Positions 1 through 62,377 of a DNA stretch of 64,000 bases are shown here, one piece after another. Source of the DNA: Streptomyces sp. NBC_01571 (GTDB lineage Bacteria; Actinomycetota; Actinomycetes; Streptomycetales; Streptomycetaceae); NCBI RefSeq assembly GCF_026339875.1, contig NZ_JAPEPZ010000001.1, positions 8,184,001 to 8,248,000 on the forward strand. Reading direction: 5' to 3'. Numbering within the stretch: position 1 is the first letter of the stretch; the number at the start of each line of letters is the position of its first letter. Below the pieces are notes generated by a model. The model had not been told where the DNA came from, did no database searches, and worked only from the letters and a program-made list of their open reading frames with translations. The position numbers were made by a program, and so were the translations under genes.

Positions 1-35
1 GGGAACTGCTGGTGGAATCCGGAGTGGCCCTGTGA
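1..35 (+). CDS. 3' end of an upstream gene (partial)
   Basis: Reading back from the TGA at 33-35 gives an open frame to the window edge that ends ELLVESGVAL. The composition fits Streptomyces coding sequence, but eleven residues cannot identify a product. It lies about 60 bp upstream of the MATE exporter gene on the same strand, so it may belong to the same cluster. It could also be a chance open frame. Confidence 0.3.
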   Translation, partial: ELLVESGVAL

Positions 36-96
36 CCGGCGCCCGTCCGTCCGCCGCGCTCCGGCGCGGCGGGCACCCCGGCCGCGGTGGCCACCG

Positions 97-1503
97 ATGA
101 GCGCTACCCGGGCGCGGTTGCTCGACCTGGACACGGTGCGCGAGGTCGTGCGCGTCTCGGTCCCGCTGATGTTCGGCATGCTCGGGAACCTGATCCTGCT
201 GCTGGTCGACCGGATCTGCCTGGCCCGCTACTCGGAGGACACCCTCACCGCGTCCGGCCCCGCCGTCTTCACCGCGACCACGGTGATCATGGTGACCACG
301 GGGGCGGTCGGCATCACCCGCTCCTACGTGGCGCAGGCCCGCGGCCGCGGGGAGAAGCGCGAGGCGATGGACGAGGGCGCCAACGGCTTCGTCCTGGCCC
401 TGCTGCTCTGCGCGCTGCTGTTCGCCTCCACCCCGCTGCTGATGTGGGTGCCCACGCTGAGCGGGCAGCCCACGCACATCCAGGAGCTGGAGGCGCAGTT
501 CCTCGGCCTGTCCACGCTCTACGGCGCGGTCATGACCCTCAACATGGCGCTGTCCTCCTACTTCAACGGCATGGGCCGGACCCGGGTGCCGATGGTCGTC
601 GGCATCCTCGGCCAGATGGTCGGCGTCGTGATGACGATCGGCCTGGTCTTCGGCCGCTTCGGCCTGCCGGAGCTGGGCATGCGGGGCTCCGCGCTCGGCA
701 CGCTGAGCGCGGTGTCCGTCATGTTCGTCGGCTACGCCGTGTACCTGCCCAAGGGGTACGCCGCGGGCTTCGGCCGGCTCGTCCGCCAGGGCGGCCGCCG
801 GGCCGCCGGGACGCTGTGGCTGCGGCTGCGGCGCGGCGCCCCCGCCGGCGGCTCCCTGAGCCTGGAGGAGCTGGGGCAGACCGCGTTCGTGTGGCTGGCC
901 GGCGTCCTGGGCCCGGTGGCGCTCGCCGCCAACAACGTGGCGCTGGCCCTGAACTACGCGGCCGTCATTCCCCTGATCGGCCTCGGCATGGGGTGCAACA
1001 TCCTGTGCGGCAAGGCCGTCGGCGCCGGAGCGCACCGGAACATTCCGCACATCATGCGGGTCACCCTGAGCATCTCGGGCCTGTACGTGGCCGTGGTCGC
1101 GCTCTTCCAGATCGTCACCCCGACCCTGCTGCTGAGTCCGTTCGGTCTCGACGGAGCCGACTCCGCCGTCACCGCCCACGCCGTGGCCACCTCGCGGGTG
1201 CTGTGGACGTACTCCTTCGCGTTCATGTTCTCGATGGTCGGTTCGGCGGTCCTGGAGTGTCTCGGCCTGGCCCGCTTCGGGTTCCTGGCGCGCGTCGTCC
1301 TCATGTGGTGTCTGTGCGTTCCCACGATCATCGCGTTCGTGCTGCTCAACCGTGATGACGCGGACATGCTGCCGGCGATGTGGGTGATCTTCTCGGCCTT
1401 CGAGGCCGCGATGGCCGCGGTCTGCCTGTGGCGCGTCAGGCAGGCCGTCGCCAACGAGGAGAACCGGCTCCACCACACCGAACCGGTCCAGCAGACGATC
1501 TGA
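97..1503 (+). CDS. MATE family efflux transporter
   Basis: This 468-residue integral membrane protein of the MATE/MOP family would export a small molecule in exchange for Na+ or H+. The length and the pattern of about 12 hydrophobic segments (for example around residues 20-45, 55-75, 100-115 and 150-190) in two similar halves are typical. The N-terminal half has the family-like stretch SVPLMFGMLGNLILLLVD. The ATG at 97 is chosen because the frame upstream is poor coding sequence; no strong ribosome site is visible. It is the first complete gene of the cluster that runs to 11865, so the likely role is product export or self-protection. MATE pumps are less common than MFS or ABC pumps in such clusters. 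The substrate cannot be read from the sequence. Confidence 0.85.
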   Translation: MSATRARLLDLDTVREVVRVSVPLMFGMLGNLILLLVDRICLARYSEDTLTASGPAVFTATTVIMVTTGAVGITRSYVAQARGRGEKREAMDEGANGFVLALLLCALLFASTPLLMWVPTLSGQPTHIQELEAQFLGLSTLYGAVMTLNMALSSYFNGMGRTRVPMVVGILGQMVGVVMTIGLVFGRFGLPELGMRGSALGTLSAVSVMFVGYAVYLPKGYAAGFGRLVRQGGRRAAGTLWLRLRRGAPAGGSLSLEELGQTAFVWLAGVLGPVALAANNVALALNYAAVIPLIGLGMGCNILCGKAVGAGAHRNIPHIMRVTLSISGLYVAVVALFQIVTPTLLLSPFGLDGADSAVTAHAVATSRVLWTYSFAFMFSMVGSAVLECLGLARFGFLARVVLMWCLCVPTIIAFVLLNRDDADMLPAMWVIFSAFEAAMAAVCLWRVRQAVANEENRLHHTEPVQQTI

Positions 1504-1523
1504 CCGACCACCCGACAGAGAGT

Positions 1524-2747
1524 GTGGCCTTTTCCGTGAACGTATTGATCCTCGGCCGCGAGGAAGACTGCCGCGACTACCTCGACTACGCGCACCAACG
1601 AGGCTTCACCGTCCGGTTCTTCGCCCCGCCGCGGCTCACCGCCGACGACCGGGCGAACTGGCAGCGGACCGTCGCCGACGCCGCGCGCGAGACCGTGGAC
1701 CTGAGCACCGTCGACGACATCATCTCCTTCCACGACAGCCACCAGATCCAACTGGAGCTGCTGCGCGGCGAACTGGGTATGCCCACTCGCGACATCGACA
1801 CCCTGCTGTGCCTCGCCGACAAGACCCGGTTCAAGGCGCACCCGGCGGTCCGTGACCACATCACCCGCCACATCGAGCTGGACACGTCGGCGAAGGCGCC
1901 CGCGGCGCTGGCGGCCGTCGACGCCGCCCTCACCTTCCCGGTCGTCGTCAAGCCGTCGAACGGCTTCTACAGCGCGGGCGTGGTGAAGGCCGCGACGCCC
2001 GAGGAGTTCCCCAAGGCGTTCATCCAGACCAAGCGGGTCTGCACGGTCCTGCGGGAGAGCTCCGGCGAGTCGCGGATGCTCGCCGAGGAGTACCTCGAGG
2101 GCAACGAGTACGCCATCGACGGCATGGTCAGCGAGGGCCGGGTCATCCCCCTCCAGATCCACCGCAAGCTGCCGCCCCTGGTCGGCCCCCTCTTCCATGA
2201 AGTGGCCTACCTGACCGAGCCGTTCGACGCGGAGCTGGGCCGCGACTTCACCGCCCTGCTGGAGAGCATCGTCCCGGGCGTCGGCCTCGACAATTCCCCC
2301 TTCCACGCGGAATTCCGCTTCGACGGCCAGGGCCGGCTGCGCGTCCTGGAACTCGCGCCGCGGCTGTGCGGCGGCGGCACCACCACCTATCAGCAACTGC
2401 GCATCTGCACCGGCCTCGACGCGTACGACCTGCTGCACCGGCTGGGCCGTGAGGCCATCGCCCCCGAGCCGCTCTACCACCGGGTGGCGCTGGAGTACGA
2501 CGCTCCCATCGAGAGCAGCGGCTTCCTGAAGAACACCGCCCGCGCGGTCGAGGTGTGCCACAAGAACGATGTCACCACCGTGCATCTGCACCGCCCGGAC
2601 GGCCAGTTCGTCCTCGCCCCGCCGCTCAACTTCGAGACGGTCCTGACCGCCTACTTCGCCCGCGACACCCGCGAAGAGGCCGAGGCACTGCTGGACGTCC
2701 TGATGATCGACTGCACGATCGACACCGAAAAGGAAAAATCCTCATGA
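1524..2747 (+). CDS. ATP-grasp ligase (carboxylate-amine/thiol ligase family)
   Basis: This 407-residue ATP-grasp enzyme is expected to activate a carboxylate as an acyl phosphate and join it to an amine or thiol. Visible elements are an N-terminal pre-ATP-grasp fold (VNVLILGREEDC), the ATP-binding VVVKPSNGFYSAG near residue 140, EEYLEGNEYAIDG near 200 and the metal site ELAPRLCGGG near 275. In that last motif Ala replaces the common Asn, a variant also met in amino-acid ligases. The GTG at 1524 follows a purine-rich stretch (acagagagt); GTG 1536 is an alternative. The stop overlaps the next gene's ATG (ATGA at 2744), so the two are translationally coupled and probably act on one intermediate. 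Family is sure; substrate is not. BtrJ of butirosin synthesis, which loads a carrier protein, is one functional precedent. Confidence 0.8.
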   Translation: MAFSVNVLILGREEDCRDYLDYAHQRGFTVRFFAPPRLTADDRANWQRTVADAARETVDLSTVDDIISFHDSHQIQLELLRGELGMPTRDIDTLLCLADKTRFKAHPAVRDHITRHIELDTSAKAPAALAAVDAALTFPVVVKPSNGFYSAGVVKAATPEEFPKAFIQTKRVCTVLRESSGESRMLAEEYLEGNEYAIDGMVSEGRVIPLQIHRKLPPLVGPLFHEVAYLTEPFDAELGRDFTALLESIVPGVGLDNSPFHAEFRFDGQGRLRVLELAPRLCGGGTTTYQQLRICTGLDAYDLLHRLGREAIAPEPLYHRVALEYDAPIESSGFLKNTARAVEVCHKNDVTTVHLHRPDGQFVLAPPLNFETVLTAYFARDTREEAEALLDVLMIDCTIDTEKEKSS

Positions 2748-4024
2748 GGCCGGAAATCAAGCGCGCCCAGCACGTCATCCCCATCGGCGCCAGCTCGCCG
2801 CTGCGCGCCTGCCGCAACGTGGAGACCGACCCACTGGTCGTCGCCGAGGCACACGGCCAGTACCTGCACGACATCGACGGCACCCGGTACGTGGACTTCA
2901 TGTACGGGTTCGGGCCGTTGATCCTCGGACACGCGCCACCGGCCGTCAGCTCCGCCATCGCCCGGCAGGCCGCCAACGGCACACTGTTCGGCACGTACTC
3001 CACGCAGGAGATCGAGCTCGCCGAGCGCATCGCCGAGACCGCCGAGCACCTGGAGCAGCTGCGTTTCGTGTGCAGCGGCACAGAGGCCGTGATGTCCACC
3101 CTGCGGCTGGCCCGCGCCTACACCGGGCGCACCCGCGTGCTGCGCTTCAACGGCGGCTACCACGGCCACTTCGACCTGGTCCAGAACAAGGACGAGGCCC
3201 GTATGCGCGACGCCGGCCTCGACCCGGACGCCATGCGCTCCAACGTCTTCGCGGAGTACAACGACGCCGAGAGCGTCGAGCGGGCCTTCGCCGACCACCC
3301 CGGCGAGATCGCGGCAGTCGTCGTCGAGCCCGTCGCCTGCAACATGTCCCTCGTCCTGCCCGAGGAGGGGTTCCTCGCCGATCTGCGGCGCATCTGCGAC
3401 CGCGAGGGCGCCCTGCTCGTCTTCGACGAGGTCATCACCGGCTTCCGGCTCACCTACGGCCCGGTGAGCAACCTTCTCGGCGTCTCTCCCGACCTCACCG
3501 CCTTCGGCAAGATCATCGGTGGTGGCACGCCCGTCGGCGCGTTCGGCGGCCGCCGCGACATCATGCGGCTGCTCGACGAGGAGCGGGTCCTGCAGGGCGG
3601 CACCCTGGCCGGCAATCCACTGACCATGGCGGCCGGTCTGGCCACCCTCGACGTCCTGGCGCAGCCGGGCTTCTACGAGGAGCTGGAGCGCAAGGGCGCC
3701 CTCCTGCAGGCCGCCGTGGAGCGCCACCGGGCCGAGCAGGGACTCGACTTCACCTTCACCCGGACCGGCAGCATCTTCGCGTTCATCTTCGTCCCGCAGC
3801 GCTCGCCGATCCGCGTCAAGGCGGACGTCGCCGCGCAGGCGCACTCGCCGTACACCACGCTGTACGCGGGCATGCGGCAGGCCGGCTACCACCTGGCGCC
3901 GGACATCGAGGAGCCGATGTACGTGTCCGCCGAGACGACGGACGAGACGATCGAGGACTTCGCGGCCCGCGCCGTCGCGCTCCTCGCCACGGACCCGAAC
4001 ACGCCGGTGGCCACCGCGGCCTAG
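2744..4024 (+). CDS. PLP-dependent aminotransferase/aminomutase, glutamate-1-semialdehyde aminomutase (HemL)-like
   Basis: This 426-residue fold-type I class III aminotransferase is related to glutamate-1-semialdehyde 2,1-aminomutase. The PLP site is clear: LLVFDEVITGFR holds the aspartate that pairs with the pyridine nitrogen, and FGKIIGGGTPVGAFGG holds the Schiff-base lysine. VCSGTEAVMSTLRLAR is the cofactor-phosphate region. The ATG at 2744 overlaps the ATP-grasp stop by four bases. A heme-pathway role is unlikely given the cluster context. Within a biosynthetic cluster such enzymes transaminate an aldehyde or move an amino group between neighbouring carbons, for example to make a beta- or diamino acid; which one is inference. 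The stop codon lies in a CTAGTGCCGC motif resembling the end of the hairpin element at 16894. Confidence 0.82.
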   Translation: MRPEIKRAQHVIPIGASSPLRACRNVETDPLVVAEAHGQYLHDIDGTRYVDFMYGFGPLILGHAPPAVSSAIARQAANGTLFGTYSTQEIELAERIAETAEHLEQLRFVCSGTEAVMSTLRLARAYTGRTRVLRFNGGYHGHFDLVQNKDEARMRDAGLDPDAMRSNVFAEYNDAESVERAFADHPGEIAAVVVEPVACNMSLVLPEEGFLADLRRICDREGALLVFDEVITGFRLTYGPVSNLLGVSPDLTAFGKIIGGGTPVGAFGGRRDIMRLLDEERVLQGGTLAGNPLTMAAGLATLDVLAQPGFYEELERKGALLQAAVERHRAEQGLDFTFTRTGSIFAFIFVPQRSPIRVKADVAAQAHSPYTTLYAGMRQAGYHLAPDIEEPMYVSAETTDETIEDFAARAVALLATDPNTPVATAA

Positions 4025-4190
4025 TGCCGCCGCACCAGCCCGCGTTCGACCCTTCGTGCCGCTCAGCGGGTGCCGTCCGGTGCCGTGCGTCGCAAGACGG
4101 AGGATCTCCCGCGTACCGGGCGTACTCGGGTGATCCGACGACGCGGCGAGGCGCCGTGCCGGCGCCGACCGTCTGACCGGAATCGTCAGG
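4021..4190. repeat. Divergent copy of the hairpin element family, in the aminotransferase-NRPS gap
   Basis: The 336-bp gap between the aminotransferase and the NRPS begins with CTAGTGCCGC at the stop codon. It then shares ordered blocks with the inverted complement of the element at 16894-17062: CGTCCGGTGC, a GTAC-n4-CGTACT-n-GGG block, GCGGCGAG and GTGCCGG. No matching right-hand inverted arm is present, so this would be an end-truncated or diverged copy. The rest of the gap to 4360 shows no gene and no recognisable promoter. The assignment rests on alignment by eye. Confidence 0.4.
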
Positions 4191-4360
4191 AACCAGCCCC
4201 GTCCACGGGCCGTGCTCCTCGGAGCGCGGCCCCCACCGCCCCGCACCGCCGTACGGCCCCGCGTCACCGCACGGCACGTGCGGGCCCTCCGCCGCCCGGC
4301 CCATGCCGCCCGCAACGCCGGACCTCCGCGCTGCCCGCCCCCTGCCGACGGGACTCCACC

Positions 4361-7300
4361 ATGAACGACGAGGCCAGGAACCTCCCCCTCCTCCCTGCCC
4401 AGGAGAGCATGCTGTTCGCCGAAGCGGCGCACGGCCGACCGGGCACCCACAACCTGGCTCTGGCGCTGCGGCTCACCGGGCCGCTCGACCGGCGCGCCCT
4501 CGACGCCGCACTGCACGCCCTGACCGAGCGGCACGAGGCGCTGCGGGTGAGCATCACCGAGCACGAGGGCGTGCCGCGGCAGACGATCGCCGCCGAGGTG
4601 AGCGTCACCGTCGAGGAGGCCGACCTCACCGCCCCGGACCCGGACACCACCGACCTCGACGGGCACTTCGCCGCGGCGCAGGACCGCCCGTTCCCACTCG
4701 ACCGGGCGCCACTGCTGCGGGCCACCGTGTTCCGGCTCGGCGAGCGGCAGCACGTCCTGCTGCTCGTCGCGCACCACAGCGTCGCCGACGGCCACTCCAT
4801 GGACGTCCTCGCCCGCGAGTTCGAGACGCTCTACGAGGCATTCGCCGAGCACCGGCCGAACCCGCTCGGGCCACCTGCCCTGAGCTACAGCGAGCACGTC
4901 GCCGCCACCCTCGCCGGCGTCTCCGACCGCCGCCGGGCCCGGGCCCTCGACCACTGGCGCACCGAACTCGACGGCGCCCCCGCCACCCTCGACCTGCCCA
5001 TGGCCCGACTGAGCGGCACCACCCGCCGACACGCGGCCACGCACCGCCGTGACCTGCCCAGGCCCGTCGTGGCCCGGCTGCGCGAGCTCACCGGCGAACA
5101 CCGCACCAGCCTCTTCGCGGGGCTCGCCGCCGGCGCCTTCGCGCTGTTGGGCCGCTACACGGGCGAGAGCGACCTCGTGCTGGGCGTACCCCTGTCCACC
5201 CGCACGGAGGCGGGCTCGGAGAGCGTGGTCGGGCTCACCGTCAACACCATGCCGCTGCGTGTCGGATACGACGCCCGTGAGGGCTTCCTGCCCCTGCTGC
5301 GCCATGTCCAGGGCCGCACCTTCCAGGCGATGCGCCACCAGAACACTCCTTTCCACGAGCTGGTCCAGGCGCTCAACCCGCCCCGCTCCGCGCACCGTCA
5401 ACCGGTGTTCCAGCTGGGCCTCAACCACGTACGGACCGGCCCCGCGGCCACCCCGCGGGCCGGGCTGCTCATCGAGGCGATGCCGATCGCCAACGCGACG
5501 GCCGCGTTCGAACTGATGCTGACCTTCGTGGAGTCGGACGACGACGTCCGGGTGTACGTCGAGTACGACACCGAGCGCTTCGACGCGAACGCCGTCCACG
5601 CCCTCGCCGACCACCTCGCGAACCTCCTCGCCGGGGTCTCCGCCGACCCCGGCGTCCCGCTCGCCGACATCGAGCTGATGGACGAGGAGGAACGGCAGCG
5701 CGCCCTGCACCTGTGGAACGACACCGCAGCGCCCCTCACCGACGACACCGTCGTGTCCCTGTTCGCCCGGCAGGCCGCCCGGCGCGGTGACGCCACCGCT
5801 GTCGTCTGCGGCCAGCACAGCCTCGGCTACGACGCCCTGGACCGGCGCTCCGCACGCCTGGCGCGGCTGCTCGCCGAACGCGGCGTGGGACAGGGCGCCT
5901 TCGTCGGCATCTCGCTGCACCGTTCCACGGCCACCGTCGTGGCCGTGCTCGCCGTGCTCAGAGCGGGCGCCGCTTATGTGCCGCTGGACCCGGCCTACCC
6001 CGCGGAACGGCTGGCGTTCATGGTGCAGGACGCCGCCCCCGCGCTGGTGATCACCGAGTCGTCGGCCCTCGGCAGCTTCGGTGCCGGTCCCGGCACGCCC
6101 CCCGTGCTCCTGCTGGACGACCCCGCCGTGCAGGCCGCCCTTGACGCGTACGACGACACGTTCGAGCGGGAGGTGACACCCGACCACACCGCCTACGTGA
6201 TCTTCACCTCCGGCTCCACCGGCCGGCCCAAGGGTGTCCGCGTCACCCACCGTAACGTCGCCAACCTCACCGCGTGGGCGGCGGCCGCCTTCGGCGACGG
6301 GCTGCAGCGGGTGCTCGCCGCGACCTCCCTCAATTTCGACGTCTCCGTGTTCGAGATCCTCGCGCCGCTGCTCAACGGCGGCAGCGTCGAGATCGTCCGC
6401 GACCTCCTGGAGATAGGCGAACGCGGCGGATGGCAGGGCACGCTCGTCAGCGGCGTCCCCTCGGTGCTGGCCCGGCTGATCGCCGACGGTGCCCTCGACC
6501 TGCGCGTCGACCACCTCGTCCTCGCCGGCGAGGCGCTGACCCCGCAGGTGGCCGGGCGGCTGCGGGCCGCCGTGCCGGGGGCCCGGCTCGTCAACGCCTA
6601 CGGGCCCACCGAGACCACCGTGTACGCCAGCGCGTCGGCCACCGGCAGCCACGGCACGGACGTGGCCGAGGAGGACACCCCGCCCATCGGCAGCCCCCTG
6701 CGCAACACCCGTCTGTACGTGCTCGACGACCGGATGCGGCCCCTGCCCCTCGGGGTGCCCGGCGAGCTGTACATCGCGGGTGCCGGCGTCGCCCAGGGCT
6801 ATCTGCACCGCCCCGACCTCACCGGATCCCGCTTCGTGACCGACCCCTTCGGGGCGCCCGGCGAGCGCATGTACCGCTCCGGCGACGTGGTGCTGCGCCG
6901 CTTCGACGGACAGCTGCAGTACGTAGGCCGCTCCGACGACCAGGTCAAGCTGCGCGGCTTCCGCGTGGAGCCCAGCGAGGTGGAGGCGGTCCTCGCCGAG
7001 CAGCCCGAGGTCGCACAGGCCGCCGTCGTGCTGCACGAGGACCGGCACAGCGAACGCCGGCTCGTCGCGTACGTCACTCCCGTGCCCGGCGCCACACCCG
7101 ACCCGGCACGGCTGCGCGCCGCCGCCGCCCGGCTGCTTCCCGAGTACATGGTCCCGGCGGCCGTCGTACCCCTGGACGTACTGCCGCTCTCGCCCAGCGG
7201 CAAACTCGACCGCGACCGGCTGCCCGGCCCCGGCTTCGGCACCTCCGCCGGCCGGCCGCCCGCCACCCCCGACGAAGTCGCCCTCGCGACCCTGTTCGCC

Positions 7301-8275
7301 GACGCGCTCGGCCAGCCCGACGTGTCGGCCACCGACAGCTTCTTCGACCTCGGCGGCCACTCCCTGATGGCGATCCGGCTCGTGGAGCGCATACGCGCGG
7401 AACTGCGCACCGAACTGACCGTGCGCGACCTCTTCGAGACACCGACCGTCCAGGGCCTGGCCCAGCGGCTGCGCCCGGACGGCACCGTACCCGAGAACAC
7501 GCCGGCCGCCGGCAGCCCGGCCGACGACTTCGCGGTCCTCCTTCCGCTGCGCACCCGGGGCAGCAGGCCCCCACTGTTCTGCTTCCACCCCGGATTCGGG
7601 CTCAGCTGGAGCTACGCCGCACTGATGCGCAGGCTCGACCCGGACCAGCCGGTGTACGCGCTGCAGGCGCGCGGTGTCGCCTCCGGTGAGCAACTCCCCA
7701 GCACCTTCGAGGAGTTGCTAGAGGACTACGTGCGGCACATCCGCGCGGTCCGCCCGCACGGACCGTACCGGCTGCTCGGCTGGTCCTTCGGCGGCCTCGT
7801 CGCCCACTCGCTGGCCACCCGGTTCCAGGCCGAGGGCGAACAGGTCGAGCTGGTCGCGATGCTGGACACCCTGATGGTCGGCACCGACGAGGAACTCGAT
7901 CCGCAGGAGATGCGCCGGCTCATCGAGTCCGAGACCGCCGCTGTGCGCCAGGTCGTGCCCGACGCCCGGCGGTTGCTGGCGGTCATCGAGAACCTGATCC
8001 GGCTCCGTGGCCAGTTTCGTCCCGGACGGTTCCGGGGCGACGTGCTGTACTTCACCGCCGCGCACGAACCGGGCCGGTCGGAGTCGGTCAGCGAACCGTG
8101 GGAGCCGTACGTCGAGGGGCGGCTGGTGGAACACCGAGTCGCCTGCGCCCATCTGGAGATGATGAACGCCCACCCCGCCCGCGAGATCGGCAACGCGGTG
8201 AGCAAGGCACTGGACGCGCTCGGAGGCACCGCACCGGAGCAGGACGCCCGCGGCACCGGCGCCCCCACCGCGTGA
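4361..8275 (+). CDS. Single-module nonribosomal peptide synthetase, C-A-PCP-TE
   Basis: This 1304-residue NRPS module has a condensation domain (about 1-430) with intact HHSVADG at 138-144. The adenylation domain (about 460-950) has the phosphate loop FTSGSTGRPKG near 615-625, NAYGPTE, YRSGDVV and PSGKLDRDRLP. A carrier domain has FDLGGHSL with the phosphopantetheine Ser at 1001, and a type I thioesterase has GWSFGG with Ser about 1142. The ten specificity positions, read by eye against GrsA, are D V F S V A A V Y K; I do not assign a substrate. The ATG at 4361 is chosen because the C domain starts immediately after it. An N-terminal C domain with no upstream module means the acyl donor must come from another route, such as the ATP-grasp enzyme or a free acyl carrier. 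A dedicated PPTase lies downstream. Confidence 0.92.
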   Translation: MNDEARNLPLLPAQESMLFAEAAHGRPGTHNLALALRLTGPLDRRALDAALHALTERHEALRVSITEHEGVPRQTIAAEVSVTVEEADLTAPDPDTTDLDGHFAAAQDRPFPLDRAPLLRATVFRLGERQHVLLLVAHHSVADGHSMDVLAREFETLYEAFAEHRPNPLGPPALSYSEHVAATLAGVSDRRRARALDHWRTELDGAPATLDLPMARLSGTTRRHAATHRRDLPRPVVARLRELTGEHRTSLFAGLAAGAFALLGRYTGESDLVLGVPLSTRTEAGSESVVGLTVNTMPLRVGYDAREGFLPLLRHVQGRTFQAMRHQNTPFHELVQALNPPRSAHRQPVFQLGLNHVRTGPAATPRAGLLIEAMPIANATAAFELMLTFVESDDDVRVYVEYDTERFDANAVHALADHLANLLAGVSADPGVPLADIELMDEEERQRALHLWNDTAAPLTDDTVVSLFARQAARRGDATAVVCGQHSLGYDALDRRSARLARLLAERGVGQGAFVGISLHRSTATVVAVLAVLRAGAAYVPLDPAYPAERLAFMVQDAAPALVITESSALGSFGAGPGTPPVLLLDDPAVQAALDAYDDTFEREVTPDHTAYVIFTSGSTGRPKGVRVTHRNVANLTAWAAAAFGDGLQRVLAATSLNFDVSVFEILAPLLNGGSVEIVRDLLEIGERGGWQGTLVSGVPSVLARLIADGALDLRVDHLVLAGEALTPQVAGRLRAAVPGARLVNAYGPTETTVYASASATGSHGTDVAEEDTPPIGSPLRNTRLYVLDDRMRPLPLGVPGELYIAGAGVAQGYLHRPDLTGSRFVTDPFGAPGERMYRSGDVVLRRFDGQLQYVGRSDDQVKLRGFRVEPSEVEAVLAEQPEVAQAAVVLHEDRHSERRLVAYVTPVPGATPDPARLRAAAARLLPEYMVPAAVVPLDVLPLSPSGKLDRDRLPGPGFGTSAGRPPATPDEVALATLFADALGQPDVSATDSFFDLGGHSLMAIRLVERIRAELRTELTVRDLFETPTVQGLAQRLRPDGTVPENTPAAGSPADDFAVLLPLRTRGSRPPLFCFHPGFGLSWSYAALMRRLDPDQPVYALQARGVASGEQLPSTFEELLEDYVRHIRAVRPHGPYRLLGWSFGGLVAHSLATRFQAEGEQVELVAMLDTLMVGTDEELDPQEMRRLIESETAAVRQVVPDARRLLAVIENLIRLRGQFRPGRFRGDVLYFTAAHEPGRSESVSEPWEPYVEGRLVEHRVACAHLEMMNAHPAREIGNAVSKALDALGGTAPEQDARGTGAPTA

Positions 8276-8331
8276 ACACCACCGGGACGACTCACGCACC
8301 AAGCCCTGGAAGAACGACGAAGGAACCTCAC

Positions 8332-9036
8332 ATGCCCCGTACTGCCCTGGTCCTCGGTGGGAACCGCGGCATCGGCCTGGCCGTGGCGCGCCATCTGGCC
8401 GCCCGCGGCGACCGGGTCGCGGTCAGCCACCGTACGGGCGAGCCGCCCGAGCAGCTGTTCGGCGTGCGCTGCGACGTCACCGACGCCGAGGCGGTGACCG
8501 CGGCCTGCGCGCGGGTCAAGGAGGAACTGGGCCCGGTGGAGGTACTCGTCCTCAACGCCGGCATCACCCGCGATCGGCTGTTCGCCGTCATGACCGCCGA
8601 GGACTTCGAGGCACCGCTGCGCACCAACCTGCTCGGCGCGTTCCACGGGGTCAAACCGGTGCTGCGGGGCATGATGCGCGCCCGGTGGGGGCGGATCGTC
8701 CTGATGTCCTCGACCGTGGCGCTGTCCGGCGCGACTGGCCAGACCAACTACGCGGCCTCCAAGGCCGGTCTCATCGGCTTCGCCCGGTCGCTGGCGCTGG
8801 AGGTGGCCGCCCACGGCATCACCGTCAACGTCGTCGCTCCCGGCTACACGGACACTGACATGGTCGCGGCCATGCCCGAGGAGCAGCGCAGAAGCCTGCT
8901 GGCGACCGTCCCGATGCGCCGGATGGCCACCTCCGACGAGATCGCGGCCGCGGTCGGCTATCTCACCGGCGAGGACGCGGGCTACGTCACCGGCACGGTC
9001 CTGCACGTCGACGGCGGCATCGGCATGGGCCACTGA
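8332..9036 (+). CDS. Short-chain dehydrogenase/reductase, FabG-like
   Basis: This 234-residue NAD(P)-dependent SDR resembles 3-oxoacyl-ACP reductase. The Rossmann motif GGNRGIG is at the N-terminus, followed by NAGITRD. Catalytic Ser126/127, Tyr140 and Lys144 lie in SS-x11-NYAASK, and VVAPGYTDTDM follows. The ATG at 8332 has a good ribosome site (aaggaa, about 8 bases upstream). It follows the NRPS on the same strand by 56 bp. FabG-type members reduce beta-keto thioesters on carrier proteins, so this one may act on a carrier-bound intermediate of the pathway; the actual substrate is inference. Confidence 0.85.
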   Translation: MPRTALVLGGNRGIGLAVARHLAARGDRVAVSHRTGEPPEQLFGVRCDVTDAEAVTAACARVKEELGPVEVLVLNAGITRDRLFAVMTAEDFEAPLRTNLLGAFHGVKPVLRGMMRARWGRIVLMSSTVALSGATGQTNYAASKAGLIGFARSLALEVAAHGITVNVVAPGYTDTDMVAAMPEEQRRSLLATVPMRRMATSDEIAAAVGYLTGEDAGYVTGTVLHVDGGIGMGH

Positions 9037-9113
9037 CCCGGCGCGCTTCCCCGCACACCACCCGGCGCCTCACCTCAGGCGGCCGGACGAACCGACACAC
9101 GGAGGGACCGCCA

Positions 9114-9914
9114 GTGCTCACCCGACCGCCGCAGCCACCGCGCACCGGCCCCGGCACGCCCACAGACGCGCTCACCCGACCGGCCGCCGCGCCGTCCCCC
9201 CGGTCCCCTTCGCGGCCGGCCGGCCACCTGCCGTACGACGCCCCTCTCGTCATGTTCCGCCCCACCGCGGAGGTCCTGCGGCTCATCGGCTCGGTCACTC
9301 TCGCCCCCTACGAACAGCAGCGCGCCGCCCGGCTTCCCGTCGGCCCCCACGAGGACTACCTGGCCGCGCACATCCTGGTCCGGCTGTGCGCGGCACGCCT
9401 CACCGGCGTACCCCTGGCCACCCTGGTCCTCGGACAGCTCTGCGGCGACTGCGGGGGAGAGGACCACGGCAGGCCCTTCCTCCGGGGCCGTCCCGGCATC
9501 CAGGTCAGCCTCTCGCACGCCCGGGGCGCGGTCGCCGCCGCCGCGGGCGCGGACCCCGTCGGCGTCGACGTGGAGGACGTCGCGACCGCGGCCTTCGACC
9601 CGCGGGTCGCCGCCCGGGTACTGGCGCCCGCCGAACTCGACGCCGTCCGCGCCGACCCCGACCCCGCACGGGCCTTCCTGTGCCTGTGGGTCCGCAAGGA
9701 GGCCCTGGTGAAGGTGGGCGTCGCGACGCTCGGCCGACTGCGCGATCTCGACCTCACGGCCCCCGGCGCGCTGCCCGGCTGGCGGTTTCTCGAATGGAAC
9801 AGCCCGGACGGCGGCGTCACCGCCGCCGCCGTCGCCCGCACCACGCCGGCCGCCGACGGCGCCCATGACCTCGGCCCCTCTCGTTTCCCCTACCAAGGAG
9901 AGCAACAGACATGA
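9114..9914 (+). CDS. 4'-phosphopantetheinyl transferase, Sfp type
   Basis: This 266-residue enzyme transfers phosphopantetheine from CoA to a carrier-protein serine, so it can activate Ser1001 of the neighbouring NRPS. The two family signatures are present: GVDVED (Asp152, Glu154, metal ligands) and LWVRKEALVK near 190-200. The GTG at 9114 follows ggaggg with 7-base spacing. The first 35 residues are Pro/Ala/Arg-rich and probably disordered. Its stop overlaps the next gene's ATG by four bases, so it is translationally coupled to the hydrolase. Confidence 0.9.
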   Translation: MLTRPPQPPRTGPGTPTDALTRPAAAPSPRSPSRPAGHLPYDAPLVMFRPTAEVLRLIGSVTLAPYEQQRAARLPVGPHEDYLAAHILVRLCAARLTGVPLATLVLGQLCGDCGGEDHGRPFLRGRPGIQVSLSHARGAVAAAAGADPVGVDVEDVATAAFDPRVAARVLAPAELDAVRADPDPARAFLCLWVRKEALVKVGVATLGRLRDLDLTAPGALPGWRFLEWNSPDGGVTAAAVARTTPAADGAHDLGPSRFPYQGEQQT

Positions 9915-10750
9915 CTGCGAACCAGTCCGTCGCACACGACAGGACCCGCACGGCGACCCCGCGCCGGCTCCTGATGTGCCCTCCCGACCACTTCGACGTC
10001 ACCTACTCCATCAACCCGTGGATGCACCCCGGCAAACCCGTGGACGGCGGCCTCGCGCTGCGCCAGTGGGAGGGGCTGCGCGCCCTGTACCAGGAGCTGG
10101 GCCACACGGTGCTGGAGATCGACCCCGTCCGCGGGCTGCCGGACATGGTCTTCGCCGCCAACGGCGCGACCGTCGTCGACGGCAAGGTGTTCGGCGCCCG
10201 CTTCCGCCACGTCGAGCGCACCGCGGAGGGCCCCGCCTATCTGGAGTGGTTCCGGCGCCAGGGGTTCGAAGAGCTCTACTGGCCCGAGCACATCAACGAG
10301 GGCGAGGGGGACTACCTGGTCGCCGGCCGCCGACTGCTCGCCGGCACGGGCTTCCGCACCGACCAGCGCTCGCACTTCGAGGCCCAGGAGTTCTTCGGGC
10401 TGCCCGTCACCGGCCTCCGGTTGGTGAACTCCTCGTACTACCACCTGGACACGGCGCTAGCGGTGCTGTCGGCCGACGAGGTGGTGTACCACCCCGAGGC
10501 GTTCTCCGAGGGCAGCCAGGCGGTGCTGCGCGAGATGTTCCCGGACGCGATCCTGGCGAGCGCCACGGACGCGGCGGTGTTCGGGCTGAACATGTTCTGC
10601 GACGGCCGGCACGTGCTGCTGCCCAAGGCGGCCACGGGGCTCGCGCGGCAACTCGCCGAGCGGGGCTTCGAGCCGATCGGAGTGGACCTCACCGAACTCC
10701 TCAAGGCCGGCGGCAGCGTGAAGTGCTGCACGCTCGAACTGCGGGGCTGA
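9911..10750 (+). CDS. DDAH/arginine-dihydrolase-type guanidino-modifying enzyme
   Basis: This 279-residue member of the guanidino-group-modifying superfamily includes dimethylarginine dimethylaminohydrolase, arginine deiminase and amidinotransferases. It has the family opening CPPDHFDVTYSINPWM, DMVFAANG, acidic GEGDYL (Glu132/Asp134), catalytic His178 in YYHLDTALAVL, and a nucleophilic Cys at 272 or 273 in GGSVKCCTLEL. The catalytic set therefore looks complete. Known members hydrolyse an amidine or guanidine C-N bond, giving citrulline- or ornithine-type products, or transfer the amidino group. In a biosynthetic cluster it may process arginine, a guanidino precursor or the product itself. 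The ATG overlaps the PPTase stop. Confidence 0.82.
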   Translation: MTANQSVAHDRTRTATPRRLLMCPPDHFDVTYSINPWMHPGKPVDGGLALRQWEGLRALYQELGHTVLEIDPVRGLPDMVFAANGATVVDGKVFGARFRHVERTAEGPAYLEWFRRQGFEELYWPEHINEGEGDYLVAGRRLLAGTGFRTDQRSHFEAQEFFGLPVTGLRLVNSSYYHLDTALAVLSADEVVYHPEAFSEGSQAVLREMFPDAILASATDAAVFGLNMFCDGRHVLLPKAATGLARQLAERGFEPIGVDLTELLKAGGSVKCCTLELRG

Positions 10751-10755
10751 CGCCG

Positions 10756-11865
10756 ATGAACAGCCACATCCTCGAGCGGTTCGAGCAGACGGCCGTCAAC
10801 TGCCTGACCGGAAGCTACTCCGTCCTCGCCGGCATCGCGGGCCGCACGGTCGAGGAACGGGCCGTCTTCGAGCGGGGGGACGGCTACCTGTTCCAGGCGG
10901 GCCTGGACGAGTCCGGGTACCCGGAGTACATCTTCCCGGTGGAAGAGGCCGGCGCGCTCGGCATCACCCGGTCTGCCTTCACCGTGCACAAGGAACCCGT
11001 CGACTTCGACGCGACGGGCCCGCAGCTCGCCGCGCTCCTGAAGCGGTACCGGGCGGTCATCGTCTGGGTCAACACAGCCCACCTCAACTACGCCGACGTG
11101 TACCGCGACAACGCCCCGTATCTGCACGCGGTCGTGGTCGACAAGATCGCCGACGACCACAGCCATGTCGAGGTCCACGACTCGCTCGTCGTCGACCTGA
11201 AGCCGTTCAGCTGCCGGGCCGTGGTGACCCTCGACGACCTGGTCCGGTCGGCCGCCGACCGGATCAGGAGCGAGGCCCACGACGCCATGGGCTTCTTCTA
11301 CGCCATATCCGACGACGCGACCGGCCTTCCCGGCGAAGGACGCCCGGACGAGGCGGCGTTGAGCGGCGCACTGACCCGCCAGGCGGAGCGCTTCTTCGCG
11401 GAGGACCGCTTCCGGGAGGCCATCCGCCGCTACCAGGCGCTGTGCGAGGAGTGCTTCGCGGGCTCACCCGAGCGCGCCGCCCGCGGCGCCCGCCGTCTGT
11501 TCCACCACGCCTCGGTCCTCTACGCGGTGCCCAGCCTGAAACTGATGGCCGAGTCCCTGCACGCCGCAGGCGCGTCGGCGGACAGCCTCGCCCTGCACGC
11601 GGCGGCCACGCGGCACTGGGAGGCGATGGGTGTGCTCGCGCTGCGTCATGAGGCGACGTCCTCTCCGGCGGTGCTGCATCGGATGACGCAGCGATTCGGT
11701 CTGCTGGACGAGGTGACCGTGAAGCTGTGGGAGTCCGTCGCGGCGGACACCGGGGCGCGCGACGACGCACCCGGCGCTCCGACACGGACCGCCGGGCATC
11801 GGACGGCGACGACCGGGACACCGCAGGGCGCGGGACTCCCTCCTGGACAGGGGCTCCGTCAGTAG
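10756..11865 (+). CDS. BtrH-like (butirosin biosynthesis H) acyltransferase-type protein
   Basis: This 369-residue protein has an N-terminal half resembling the BtrH N-terminal domain, a papain-like fold. Cys16 sits in AVNCLTGSYSVLAG, and a His-Asp pair sits in YLHAVVVDKI and HVEVHDS, a plausible Cys-His-Asp triad. The C-terminal half (from about 190) is helical and Arg/Glu/Ala-rich and I do not recognise it; the last 30 residues are low complexity. BtrH moves an acyl group from a carrier protein to an amine in butirosin synthesis, so a transfer step after NRPS loading is a reasonable inference. The ATG at 10756 lies 5 bp after the hydrolase stop. The 3' end overlaps that of the convergent XRE gene by 7 bp. 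The family call is by motif memory only. Confidence 0.6.
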   Translation: MNSHILERFEQTAVNCLTGSYSVLAGIAGRTVEERAVFERGDGYLFQAGLDESGYPEYIFPVEEAGALGITRSAFTVHKEPVDFDATGPQLAALLKRYRAVIVWVNTAHLNYADVYRDNAPYLHAVVVDKIADDHSHVEVHDSLVVDLKPFSCRAVVTLDDLVRSAADRIRSEAHDAMGFFYAISDDATGLPGEGRPDEAALSGALTRQAERFFAEDRFREAIRRYQALCEECFAGSPERAARGARRLFHHASVLYAVPSLKLMAESLHAAGASADSLALHAAATRHWEAMGVLALRHEATSSPAVLHRMTQRFGLLDEVTVKLWESVAADTGARDDAPGAPTRTAGHRTATTGTPQGAGLPPGQGLRQ

Positions 11866-12725
11866 GAGTCGCGCAGTTCCCGCAGGATCTCCTTCGTGCG
11901 GGGGACGGAGGCGGCCTGGGCCGACATGTGGTCCAGGACCTCCAGATGCGTGGCCACCTCGCGCCGCGAGTCGAGATAGACGGCACCGGTCAGGTACTCG
12001 CTGTAGACCATGTCCGGCAGTTCCGGCTCCGCGAAGCGGAACAGGGCGAAGGACGTGTACGTCCCCGGATGCGGCCCGCTCGCGTACTCGGCGACCTGGA
12101 GGGAGATGTCGTCGCTCTCCAACTCCCTCAGGAGCCGGTCGATCTGGTGGCGCATCACCTCGCCGCGGATGCTCACGGGCCGCCGCAGCGCCGTCTCGTC
12201 CATGATCACCCAGAGGTGGGGCCGGTTCTCCCGTCCCAGCAGCAGTTGCTGCCGCGTCATGCGCAGCGTGACATGCCGCTCGATGGCCTCCGGACCCCTC
12301 TGCCCGACCGTCCCGGCCTCCAGCACGGCCCGCGCGTACTCCTCGGTCTGCAGCAGACCGGGCACGAAGTGTGGCTCGTACGAGCGGATCATCCGGGCGG
12401 CGCCCTCCAGACTGACATGCAGGCTGAACCAGTCCGGCAGTACGTCGTGGAACCGCTGCCACCACCCCGGCCGGTTCGCCTCCTCGGCCAGCGCGACGAA
12501 AGCGGCGACCTCTTCGTCCGCCACCCCGTACGTCGTCAGCAGCACCTGGAGGTAAGGGATCTTGAGGGCGACCTCGGCCATCTCCATGCGCCGCACGGTC
12601 GCCGGAGCCACACGCAGAACACGCGCGGCCTCCTCCCGCCGCAGACCGGTCGCCTCCCGCAACTCCTGCAGCCGCCGTCCGAGCACCACTTGCCCCACGG
12701 TGGGCGCAGCCCGCCGTTCACTCAC
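11859..12725 (-). CDS. XRE-family transcriptional regulator with DUF5753 domain
   Basis: This 288-residue regulator has an N-terminal helix-turn-helix (LGRRLQELREATGLRREEAA) followed by a DUF5753 effector domain with the typical segments VPGLLQTEEYARAV and GRENRPHLWVIMDETALRR. The GTG at 12725 is chosen because it follows a strong ggggaggg ribosome site; an in-frame ATG at 12788 has none. Such regulators are very numerous in Streptomyces and often sit beside biosynthetic or developmental genes. It faces the cluster tail to tail, overlapping the BtrH-like gene by 7 bp. A 15-bp palindrome lies about 100 bp upstream (12825-12839). Confidence 0.88.
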   Translation of the reverse strand: MSERRAAPTVGQVVLGRRLQELREATGLRREEAARVLRVAPATVRRMEMAEVALKIPYLQVLLTTYGVADEEVAAFVALAEEANRPGWWQRFHDVLPDWFSLHVSLEGAARMIRSYEPHFVPGLLQTEEYARAVLEAGTVGQRGPEAIERHVTLRMTRQQLLLGRENRPHLWVIMDETALRRPVSIRGEVMRHQIDRLLRELESDDISLQVAEYASGPHPGTYTSFALFRFAEPELPDMVYSEYLTGAVYLDSRREVATHLEVLDHMSAQAASVPRTKEILRELRDSY

Positions 12726-12824
12726 GCCACGCCCTCCCCACGCGCCGAAGCCCCCCGAGCAGTGTGTCATGCGCCCCGGGACCTCCATGGGGTCCGACAG
12801 GACGAGAATGACTCAAACGGATCG

Positions 12825-43325: not shown

Positions 43326-44273
43326 ATGAACGGCTCACGCATCGCGGCCGTCGGCCACTACCAGCCCGCCAAGGTCCTCACCAACGAGGACCTGGCGGGC
43401 CTGGTCGACACCAGTGACGAGTGGATCAAGAGCCGGGTGGGCATCCGTACGCGCCACATCGCCGGACCCGACGAACCCGTCGACGAGCTGGCCGGGCACG
43501 CCGCCGCCAAGGCGCTCGCGGCCGCCGGACTGGCGCCCGGCGACATCGACCTGGTGCTGGTCGCCACCTCGACGGCCGTCGACCGTTCCCCGAACATGGC
43601 CGCCCGGGTCGCGCACCGCCTCGGCATCCCGTCTCCCGCGGCGATGGACGTCAACGTGGTCTGCGCGGGCTTCACCCACGCGCTCGCCACGGCCGACCAC
43701 GCCGTGCGCGCGGGGGCCGCGACCCGGGTCCTGGTCATCGGCGCGGACAAGATGTCGGACGTGACGGACTGGACCGACCGCACGACCTGCGTCCTGGTCG
43801 GGGACGGAGCGGGGGCCGCCGTGGTCGAGGCCGCCGCGCCGGGCGACGAGCCGGGGATCGGGCCCGTGCTGTGGGGCTCGGTGCCCGAGATGGGGCACGC
43901 CGTACGCATCGAGGGCACGCCGGCGCGGTTCGCGCAGGAGGGCCAGAGCGTCTACCGCTGGGCGACGACCCGGCTCCCGGCGATCGCCCGGCAGGCCTGC
44001 GAGCGGGCCGGACTCACCCCCGAGGAACTGGCCGGAGTCGTCCTGCACCAGGCGAACCTGCGCATCATCGAACCCCTCGCGCAGAAGATCGGCGCCGTGA
44101 ACGCGGTGGTCGCGCGCGACGTGGTGGACTCCGGGAACACCTCCGCCGCCAGCATCCCGCTCGCCTTGTCGAAGCTCGTCGAACGCGGTGAGATCGGCAC
44201 GGGCGACCCCGTGCTCCTCTTCGGCTTCGGCGGCAACCTGTCCTACGCGGGCCAGGTCGTCCGCTGCCCCTGA
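43326..44273 (+). CDS. Beta-ketoacyl-ACP synthase III (FabH-like)
   Basis: This 315-residue thiolase-fold condensing enzyme has the full FabH triad: Cys113 in DVNVVCAGFTHAL, His241 in VVLHQANLRII and Asn271 in SGNTSAASIPLAL. Also present are DTSDEWIKSRVGIRTRHI at the N-terminus and the C-terminal FGFGGNLSYAGQVV. It condenses an acyl-CoA starter with malonyl-ACP. No fabD, ACP or other fatty-acid genes adjoin, so it is a stand-alone paralogue. A role in starter-unit supply or acyl transfer for a secondary metabolite is possible. The ATG at 43326 follows gagggag. Confidence 0.92.
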   Translation: MNGSRIAAVGHYQPAKVLTNEDLAGLVDTSDEWIKSRVGIRTRHIAGPDEPVDELAGHAAAKALAAAGLAPGDIDLVLVATSTAVDRSPNMAARVAHRLGIPSPAAMDVNVVCAGFTHALATADHAVRAGAATRVLVIGADKMSDVTDWTDRTTCVLVGDGAGAAVVEAAAPGDEPGIGPVLWGSVPEMGHAVRIEGTPARFAQEGQSVYRWATTRLPAIARQACERAGLTPEELAGVVLHQANLRIIEPLAQKIGAVNAVVARDVVDSGNTSAASIPLALSKLVERGEIGTGDPVLLFGFGGNLSYAGQVVRCP

Positions 44274-61207: not shown

Positions 61208-62377
61208 ATGCGCTTCCGCCACCCCGACGGCTCCACCGTCCACCTCGCCTACTGCACCAACGTCCACCCGGCCGAAACCCTCGACGGCGTGCTCGCCCAG
61301 CTCCGCGACCACTGCGAACCCGTCCGCCGACGCCTCGGCCGCGACCGCCTCGGCATCGGCCTGTGGCTCGCCAAGGACGCCGCCCACGCCCTGGTCACCG
61401 ACCCCGCCGCGCTGCGCGCCCTGCGCACCGAGCTCGACCGCCGCGGCCTCGAAGTCGTCACCCTCAACGGCTTTCCCTACGAGGGCTTCGGCGCCGAAGA
61501 GGTCAAGTACCGCGTCTACCGCCCCGACTGGGCCGACCCGGAACGCCTCGTCCACACCACCGCCCTCGCCCGCGTCCTCGCCCGGCTCCTCCCCGACGAC
61601 GTCACCGAAGGCAGCATCTCCACCCTGCCGCTGGCCTGGCGCACCGCGTACGACGACGACCGCGCGGCGACCGCCCGGGCCGCGCTGACCACCCTCGCGG
61701 AACGCCTCGACGCCCTCCACGAACTCACCGGACGCTCGCTGCGCGTCGGCCTGGAACCCGAACCGGGCTGCACCGTCGAGACCACCGCCGACGCGATCGC
61801 CCCGCTCACCGCCATCGGCCACGACCGCATCGGCGTCTGCGTGGACACGTGCCACCTCGCCACCTCCTTCGAGGACCCGCACACCGCCCTGGACGCCCTC
61901 GCCGAGGCCCGCGTCCCGGTCGTCAAGTCCCAGCTCTCCGCGGCCCTGCACGCCGAACACCCCCGTCACTCCGATGTCCGCGCGGCCCTCGCCGCCTTCG
62001 ACGAACCCCGCTTCCTGCACCAGACCCGCACCACCACCGCCACGGGCCTGCGCGGCACGGACGACCTCGGCGAAGCCCTGACCGGCGACGCGCTGCCCGA
62101 CACCGCCCCGTGGCGCGCCCACTTCCACGTCCCGCTGCACGCGGCCCCCGCCGCACCCCTCACCTCGACCCTCCCCGTCCTCAAGGCCGCGCTGACCCGT
62201 CTCGTCGGCGGCCCGCACCCGCTCACCCGGCACCTGGAGGTCGAGACCTACACCTGGCAGGCCCTCCCGCCCGAGCTGCGCCCCCGTGGCCGCGCCCAGC
62301 TCGTCGACGGAATCGCCGCCGAACTCACCGTCGCGCGCGATCTGTTGACGGACCTCGGCCTCAAGGAGCTGCCGTGA
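61208..62377 (+). CDS. eboE: EboE-like metabolite-traffic protein (xylose-isomerase-like TIM barrel)
   Basis: This 389-residue protein has the EboE pattern: HLAYCTNVHPAETLDGVL, LGIGLWLAKDAAHAL, EVVTLNGFPYEGFGAEEVKY, TLPLAWRTAYDDD, VGLEPEPGCTVETTADAI (metal Glu), GVCVDTCHLATSFEDP (Asp, His) and HFHVPLHAAPAAP, with VETYTWQALPPELRP near the end. It starts 3 bp after the TatD gene and overlaps the next GTG. It is isomerase-like in fold, but the reaction is unknown. Confidence 0.85.
   Translation: MRFRHPDGSTVHLAYCTNVHPAETLDGVLAQLRDHCEPVRRRLGRDRLGIGLWLAKDAAHALVTDPAALRALRTELDRRGLEVVTLNGFPYEGFGAEEVKYRVYRPDWADPERLVHTTALARVLARLLPDDVTEGSISTLPLAWRTAYDDDRAATARAALTTLAERLDALHELTGRSLRVGLEPEPGCTVETTADAIAPLTAIGHDRIGVCVDTCHLATSFEDPHTALDALAEARVPVVKSQLSAALHAEHPRHSDVRAALAAFDEPRFLHQTRTTTATGLRGTDDLGEALTGDALPDTAPWRAHFHVPLHAAPAAPLTSTLPVLKAALTRLVGGPHPLTRHLEVETYTWQALPPELRPRGRAQLVDGIAAELTVARDLLTDLGLKELP

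Follow-up and report, generated by a model that had tools for sequence, protein, structure and literature searches.

The question raised by this locus is what kind of metabolite is made by a group of biosynthetic genes in Streptomyces sp. NBC_01571, and where this gene group begins and ends. The window, i.e., the whole stretch of 64,000 nucleotides that was analysed, corresponds to C1:8184001-8248000 of the 11.5 Mb genome, and reading of its open reading frames revealed eight co-directional genes on the + strand at positions 97-11865. Two ATGA overlaps are present at 2744-2747 and 9911-9914, as a preliminary description of this DNA had stated. It had taken the eight genes for an unfamiliar cluster starting at position 97 and leading to a small modified amide or dipeptide. 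The conserved cluster, the single module of a non-ribosomal peptide synthetase (NRPS), the amide ligase and the acyltransferase fit that proposal, whereas a beta- or guanidino-derived building block, also suggested there, is only a possibility. The start was misplaced and seven genes were missed: reading 19 kb upstream of the window revealed seven further cluster genes directly in front of the eight. They encode a crotonase, a ketosynthase (KS), a truncated KS partner, an acyl carrier protein (ACP1), a 2-oxoglutarate/Fe dioxygenase, an amino acid:[carrier protein] ligase resembling aminoacyl-tRNA synthetases (aaRS), and a second carrier protein (ACP2). Together these seven genes occupy C1:8178390-8184035, of which only the 35 bases at the 3' end, belonging to the ACP2 gene, fall inside the window (positions 1-35), and the whole 15-gene cluster spans C1:8178390-8195865 (17.5 kb).

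Since the KS with its partner, the two ACPs, the aaRS-like ligase and the dioxygenase are cut off by the window, the first interpretation was incomplete. With the upstream genes included, the locus is no longer a lone NRPS module with tailoring enzymes but a hybrid with a line resembling a type II polyketide synthase (PKS). We give an even chance to the reading that the 15 genes form an orphan cluster for a small exported peptide-like metabolite, in which a line for aminoacyl units and a type II PKS-like line with a single extension are joined via the acyltransferase and the NRPS module.

Conservation of the cluster in Streptomyces

The synteny of the cluster was analysed by tblastn of the 15 cluster proteins against regions fetched from five other genomes. 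All 15 genes are found together in G293, G193, and G266, where the main matches are 68-90% identical, and 14 of the 15 are found together in G119 and G221 (41-79% identity), which lack the gene for the enzyme similar to HemL (glutamate-1-semialdehyde aminomutase) and have a different gene order, with the dihydrolase and ATP-grasp genes adjoining each other beside the crotonase gene. The NRPS of G119 is covered in part, since the fetched stretch ends there; furthermore, the G119 KS is frame-broken and the G266 PPTase (4'-phosphopantetheinyl transferase) is in two pieces. Eight flanking proteins, four from each side, gave no match at E<=1e-8 in the five regions, which reach some kilobases past the cluster. 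The 15 genes are thus a real conserved unit that is discrete as far as the analysis reaches, and because the complete set recurs in three other genomes and 14 of 15 genes in two more, the gene set is more than a chance assembly. The synteny check proposed in the preliminary description has therefore turned out in its favour.

Within a genus sample of 392 genomes, own genome included, the ATP-grasp gene is present in six (E<=1e-40), and the aaRS-like ligase is present in the same six (E<=1e-40). The KS partner occurs in those six and in three more (E<=1e-15), and the HemL-like enzyme in four of the six with the ligase, all other genomes of the sample lacking it (E<=1e-110). In a class-wide sample the ATP-grasp gene was detected in one of 394 genomes (E<=1e-40), namely the own one. 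A plasmid collection contained no relative of the ATP-grasp enzyme at E<=1e-20, and the ligase relatives found there are distant only (59 records, all <60% identity). A scan of genome contigs with an alignment of the ATP-grasp enzyme gave at least 98 stretches with a relative, of which 80 loci were kept; the best segments are 21-35% identical and were not used for synteny. A protein search with the same enzyme, in which the 7997 candidates sharing most words were scored, gave at least 48 matches at E<=1e-10, among them proteins of Kitasatospora, Micromonospora, Amycolatopsis, Chromobacterium, Pseudomonas, and Rhizobium.

Dioxygenase, ligase and second carrier protein

The genes for the dioxygenase, the ligase and ACP2 lie on the same strand as the eight window genes. 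The dioxygenase matches PF10014 (E 3.5e-28) with a conserved HxD motif. The ligase aligns over 222 residues with Bll0957 (3mey/4h2w), which is of the class II aaRS type, and shares with the Bll0957-type amino acid:[carrier protein] ligases the catalytic core and the Cys195, Glu240, and Cys339 columns, which are kept in all six clusters and which we take to be metal-binding. Known ligases of this type reportedly have a small carrier protein gene next to them, as is the case here. However, unlike these, the cluster ligase sits inside a biosynthetic cluster and stays below the NF005479 equivalog cut-off (117.8 versus 357). The adjacent ACP2 gene (whole gene at L001:18775-19035, + strand, the window position being L001 minus 19000) encodes a protein with a weak PF00550 match (E 0.013). 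The serine motifs of the ACPs are conserved, and that of ACP2 reads ISSLDQ or VSSLDQ in six of six ligase-bearing clusters.

The ketosynthase cassette

ACP1, the KS partner, the KS and the crotonase are encoded in a separate divergent operon. The Cys162, His292, and His325 motifs of the KS are kept in seven of eight relatives, and the frame-broken G119 copy keeps the Cys motif. The KS partner has 283 amino acids and is without clear family, with a weak Pfam similarity to ketosynthases (E 0.059). It has 57 homologues at E<=0.001, and FabF models match six of 37 KS-partner homologues. A model of a 96% identical homologue (P0057, pLDDT 81) has as its closest folds the chain-length factors ApeC and the ishigamide chain-length factor (TM 0.60-0.72, root-mean-square deviation 5-9 Å, 11-13% identity), and its best 50 fold matches are all ketosynthase-containing entries. 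Judged by this homologue, the KS partner is therefore predicted to fold like a chain-length factor.

The three additional genomes with a KS partner, G381, G346, and G135, contain a second cluster type, in which the same ACP-partner-KS-crotonase cassette lies inside a different NRPS cluster. In G381 the cassette is near an NRPS of the condensation-adenylation-peptidyl carrier protein-thioesterase (C-A-PCP-TE) type with the code DVFDFGGVTK, two acyl-CoA dehydrogenase-type proteins, a sulfotransferase, a semialdehyde dehydrogenase-type protein, and an ATP-grasp protein. The region also has a BtrH_N protein following a 198-aa protein, as well as sulfate-activation-like and transketolase-like genes, which were judged by reading translations only. 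To us this gene set is reminiscent of aziridine-forming pathways of the azinomycin/vazabitide type.

Enzymes encoded within the window

The family assignments of the preliminary description, that is MatE, ATP-grasp_4, Aminotran_3/GSA aminomutase, C-A-PCP-TE, adh_short/FabG, ACPS, and DDAH, are confirmed. The first gene (97-1503) encodes a MATE-family exporter (PF01554, E 1.6e-29), which is kept in all five other clusters. It is followed by the gene for an ATP-grasp ligase of the L-amino acid ligase type (1536-2747, GTG start, alternative start at 1524; PF13535, E 1e-23), whose closest solved chain is the L-amino acid ligase BL00235 (3vot, E 6.8e-17).

Overlapping with the ATP-grasp gene by ATGA, the next gene (2744-4024) encodes a pyridoxal phosphate-dependent enzyme of the HemL type with matches to Aminotran_3 and glutamate-1-semialdehyde (GSA) aminomutase models. 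It scores above the cut-off of NF000818 (443.2 bits, cut-off 398), but below that of TIGR00713 hemL (409.5, cut-off 527.3), and its nearest paralogue, the presumed HemL encoded elsewhere in the genome, is 40% identical. The loop after YHGH has six residues fewer than in this presumed HemL, which is the same in all four copies. Residues aligned with the GSA aminomutase active site, e.g., the lysine and a glutamate in the C-terminal part, are kept. The enzyme is probably not the housekeeping HemL. Being absent from two of the six ligase-bearing clusters, it is outside the conserved core and an optional addition in one sub-clade.

The single-module NRPS (4361-8275) comprises the Pfam domains Condensation, AMP-binding, PP-binding, and Thioesterase, so that C, A, PCP, and TE are all present, with the motifs HHSVADG, LGGHSL, and GWSFGG intact. 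The four HemL-bearing clusters have the A-domain code DVFSVAAVYK in common, whereas G221, which lacks the HemL-like gene, has DGYFWGGTFK and G119 has the same in part; these codes were placed by motif anchoring, without the use of a trained predictor, and are not taken to point to any substrate. Further downstream are the genes for a FabG-type ketoreductase of the short-chain dehydrogenase/reductase (SDR) type (8332-9036; PF13561/PF00106 and FabG models), whose Ser and Tyr/Lys motifs are kept in six of six ligase-bearing clusters, and for the PPTase (9114-9914, start GTG 9114 or ATG 9252; PF01648, E 2.4e-11).

The PPTase gene overlaps by ATGA with that of an arginine dihydrolase/dimethylargininase-type guanidine hydrolase (9911-10750). 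This protein is above the cut-off of the NCBI dimethylargininase model NF045659 (436.8 bits, cut-off 300) and below that of arginine dihydrolase (187.4 versus 450). Its six solved relatives all belong to Alr4995 or Sll1336 (AgrE/ArgZ; best E 1.6e-47), which are known as arginine dihydrolases. With these it has the family and the columns of Asn84, His178, and Cys272, presumably catalytic, in common, and the motifs are kept in six of six clusters. Because of this closeness to solved arginine dihydrolases, the enzyme may only supply ornithine. Two paralogues are encoded elsewhere in the genome, one 66% identical at C1:3518275-3519081 and one 54% identical that adjoins a class III aminotransferase (C1:1672300).

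The last gene (10756-11865) encodes a predicted papain-like cysteine acyltransferase (P0008), which had been called BtrH-like. By its own sequence this is weak, with PF14399 at E 0.0025 and a score of 18.5 under the gathering score of 29.7, but the label is backed by the homologues, 20 of 30 of which match PF14399 at E<=0.01, and by the predicted fold. Cys16, His124, and Asp142 are invariant in 30 of 30. The model (pLDDT 88) has AziU2-U3, CtaG, and CcbD as best folds (TM 0.52-0.61), and it is 10-17% identical to the 19 solved chains that match at E<=0.001. The predicted fold is thus shared with butirosin BtrH, celesticetin CcbD, closthioamide CtaG, and azinomycin AziU2-U3. The titles of the CtaG structure entries name variants of Cys, His, and Asp, which match the cluster triad in kind.

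Proposed pathway and alternative explanations

Gene set, co-conservation, families, the two predicted folds and intact motifs are observations, whereas all substrates, the point at which the two lines meet, the sequence of reactions and the product itself are inferred. In the aminoacyl line, the dioxygenase would hydroxylate an amino acid, which the aaRS-like ligase would activate and load onto ACP2. In the other line, the KS and its truncated partner would carry out a single extension with malonyl on ACP1, after which the beta-carbon would be processed by the SDR and the crotonase. Most likely, the lines would meet by aminoacyl-ACP2 priming the KS, so that the amino acid would be lengthened by a C2 unit, first to a gamma-amino-beta-keto and then to a beta-hydroxy or enoyl form. 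The cysteine acyltransferase could then transfer a carrier-bound acyl group to an amine, the NRPS module would add one more amino acid and release the product by its own thioesterase, and the ATP-grasp ligase might form a further amide. The arginine dihydrolase-type enzyme would supply ornithine or remove the guanidine, and the MATE protein would export the product. Going further, one may imagine a dissociated (type II) machine for amino acid lengthening, in which aminoacyl-ACP primes a pair of KS and cyclization factor-like protein to give 4-amino-3-oxoacyl-ACP, ketoreductase and crotonase lead to statine-like or vinylogous gamma-amino acids, and, in the HemL-bearing sub-clade, the aminomutase with the shortened loop swaps the neighboring amine and carbonyl to give a beta-amino acid. 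Such a swap is a chemical relative of the pair of GSA and 5-aminolevulinate, but this full scheme is unlikely.

Priming by aminoacyl-ACP2 is, we infer, the simplest way to connect the lines, because no other starter-loading enzyme was recognised, apart from the ATP-grasp enzyme, which by analogy with BtrJ we assume could be a second loader. This possible second loader already speaks against such priming, and several further points do so as well. The substrates of the ligase, the dioxygenase and the A domain cannot be read from sequence, and such ligases are not known to act in a pathway of this sort. The weightiest of these points is that the ACP1-partner-KS-crotonase cassette occurs without ligase, ACP2, and dioxygenase in three of nine cassette-bearing genomes (G381, G346, and G135; 36 kb fetched), which have no ligase anywhere at E<=1e-40. 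In addition, KS and crotonase are closer to this cassette-only group (74-76%) than to the ligase-bearing G119 and G221 (66-71%). Therefore, aminoacyl-ACP2 need not prime the KS, and there may be two independent acyl precursors: the cassette would start from something other than an amino acid and build an acyl group of its own, short or cyclic, while aminoacyl-ACP2 would be a mere acyl donor to an amine via the cysteine acyltransferase, without any C-C extension. This alternative, to which we give roughly one chance in three, is also in line with the separate divergent operon of the cassette, with the KS partner, which is slightly closer to the cassette-only group (53-55%) than to G119 and G221 (51%), and with the BtrH-fold enzymes such as CcbD, which are said to act on carrier-bound acyl groups. 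Against it stand the failure to recognise a dedicated starter-loading enzyme for the cassette other than the aminoacyl ligase and, possibly, the ATP-grasp enzyme, the absence of an AmcH-type 2-oxoglutarate ligase, and ACP1 of the HemL-bearing clusters, which is closer to G119 and G221 (55-68%) than to the cassette-only group (40-50%); the cassette protein trees are unrooted and do not give sister relations among sub-clades. Compatible with either aminoacyl priming or two separate precursors, the HemL-like enzyme might make the amino acid that is activated by the NRPS instead of acting on the KS product, since all four HemL-bearing clusters share one A-domain code, G221 has another one that G119 shows in part, and the gene itself is confined to these four among the 392 genomes at E<=1e-110. 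We regard this as rather doubtful: the code keeps Asp235, which is usual for alpha-amino acids, no precursor pathway is evident, and the correlation may be one single event because only two sub-clades are compared. The correlation could reflect a role of the enzyme either in supplying the NRPS with its substrate or in altering the intermediate after C2 extension.

Among published systems, the KS-cyclization factor pairs of cispentacin (amc) and coronafacic acid (cfa) come closest, and one such pair is described to perform one C2 extension on an ACP (PMC10698177). The present cluster shares with them a discrete KS, a dedicated ACP, a presumed single C2 extension and, in some clusters, a class III PLP enzyme, and its short partner, predicted to fold like a chain-length factor, may correspond to their short partner without functional motifs. 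It adds the crotonase, the dioxygenase, the aminoacyl ligase with a second ACP, the NRPS with thioesterase, the ATP-grasp enzyme and the cysteine acyltransferase. It might be argued that the cluster is itself of the cispentacin/coronafacate type and makes a cyclopentane amino acid, as the KS matches the AmcF model NF058662 (162.9 bits), ACP1 weakly matches the AmcB model (25.6 bits, cut-off 80), and the partner, being short and by prediction like a chain-length factor in fold, agrees with the description of AmcG (PMC10698177). However, the KS is below the AmcF cut-off of 325 and scores higher on the KAS II model NF005589 (202.2), and no NCBIfam match ties the partner to any family including that of cispentacin, where the presence of an AmcG model in NCBIfam is not established. 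The amc and cfa systems are described to use a 2-oxoglutarate loader, AmcH; an AmcH-type ligase is absent here, since among the 15 proteins AMP-binding was matched by nothing but the A domain of the NRPS, and their Pfam matches do not include a hot-dog domain (AmcE). Because AmcH and AmcE were not recognised and the KS is under the AmcF cut-off, the cluster is not filed as cispentacin type, though it may work similarly, and a cyclopentane product is highly improbable.

Relation to other known systems

Open-access literature searches, not all of which were aimed at the gene set, gave no published cluster with the same combination, and as far as the analysis reaches we regard the locus as an orphan hybrid type II PKS-like/NRPS cluster that is rarely found in Streptomyces. 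By description, the Pbo cluster of Pseudomonas syringae has an L-amino acid ligase-like protein, an isoleucine-4-hydroxylase-like dioxygenase, a ketosynthase-like protein and NRPS parts together, as here, but differs by a lysine 2,3-aminomutase-like protein, a KAS III-like protein and a split NRPS (PMC8473136). Arginine dihydrolase-like proteins are also known from biosynthetic clusters as Lon22, likened here by description, and KasD (PMC12305651). In the kasichelin cluster KasD goes with the ATP-grasp protein KasC, the same pairing as here, and ornithine supply by KasD is discussed by the authors as speculation (PMC12305651). Negamycin, which had been suspected from the logic of a C2-extended diamino acid, was rejected: its cluster is described with a KinJ-type enzyme, N-methylation, lysine hydroxylation and beta-lysine formation (PMC12154649), whereas none of the 15 proteins matched a methyltransferase or radical-SAM family.

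If priming by aminoacyl-ACP2 is true, the recently recognised short-chain type II PKS-like systems would be widened from 2-oxoglutarate to amino acid starters, and class II aaRS-like amino acid:[carrier protein] ligases would gain a pathway role. Furthermore, peptides with gamma- or beta-amino acids, which include many enzyme inhibitors, would become accessible with few enzymes encoded on as little as 17.5 kb. Even with two separate acyl precursors, the cluster remains conserved and orphan and lends itself well to experiments.

Neighboring genes

Directly after the cluster, a Sco1979-family transcriptional regulator is encoded on the opposite strand at 11862-12788 (421.9 bits, cut-off 350). 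Since the fetched surroundings of the five other clusters contain no match to it, the regulator is probably not part of the cluster. Repeats of note were not found in window positions 1-12000. Apart from the cluster, a stand-alone KAS III of the FabH type is encoded at 43326-44270. Finally, an EboE metabolite traffic protein (61208-62377; NF035939, 429.7 bits, cut-off 250) lies close to the right end of the window and probably belongs to an ebo-type operon.

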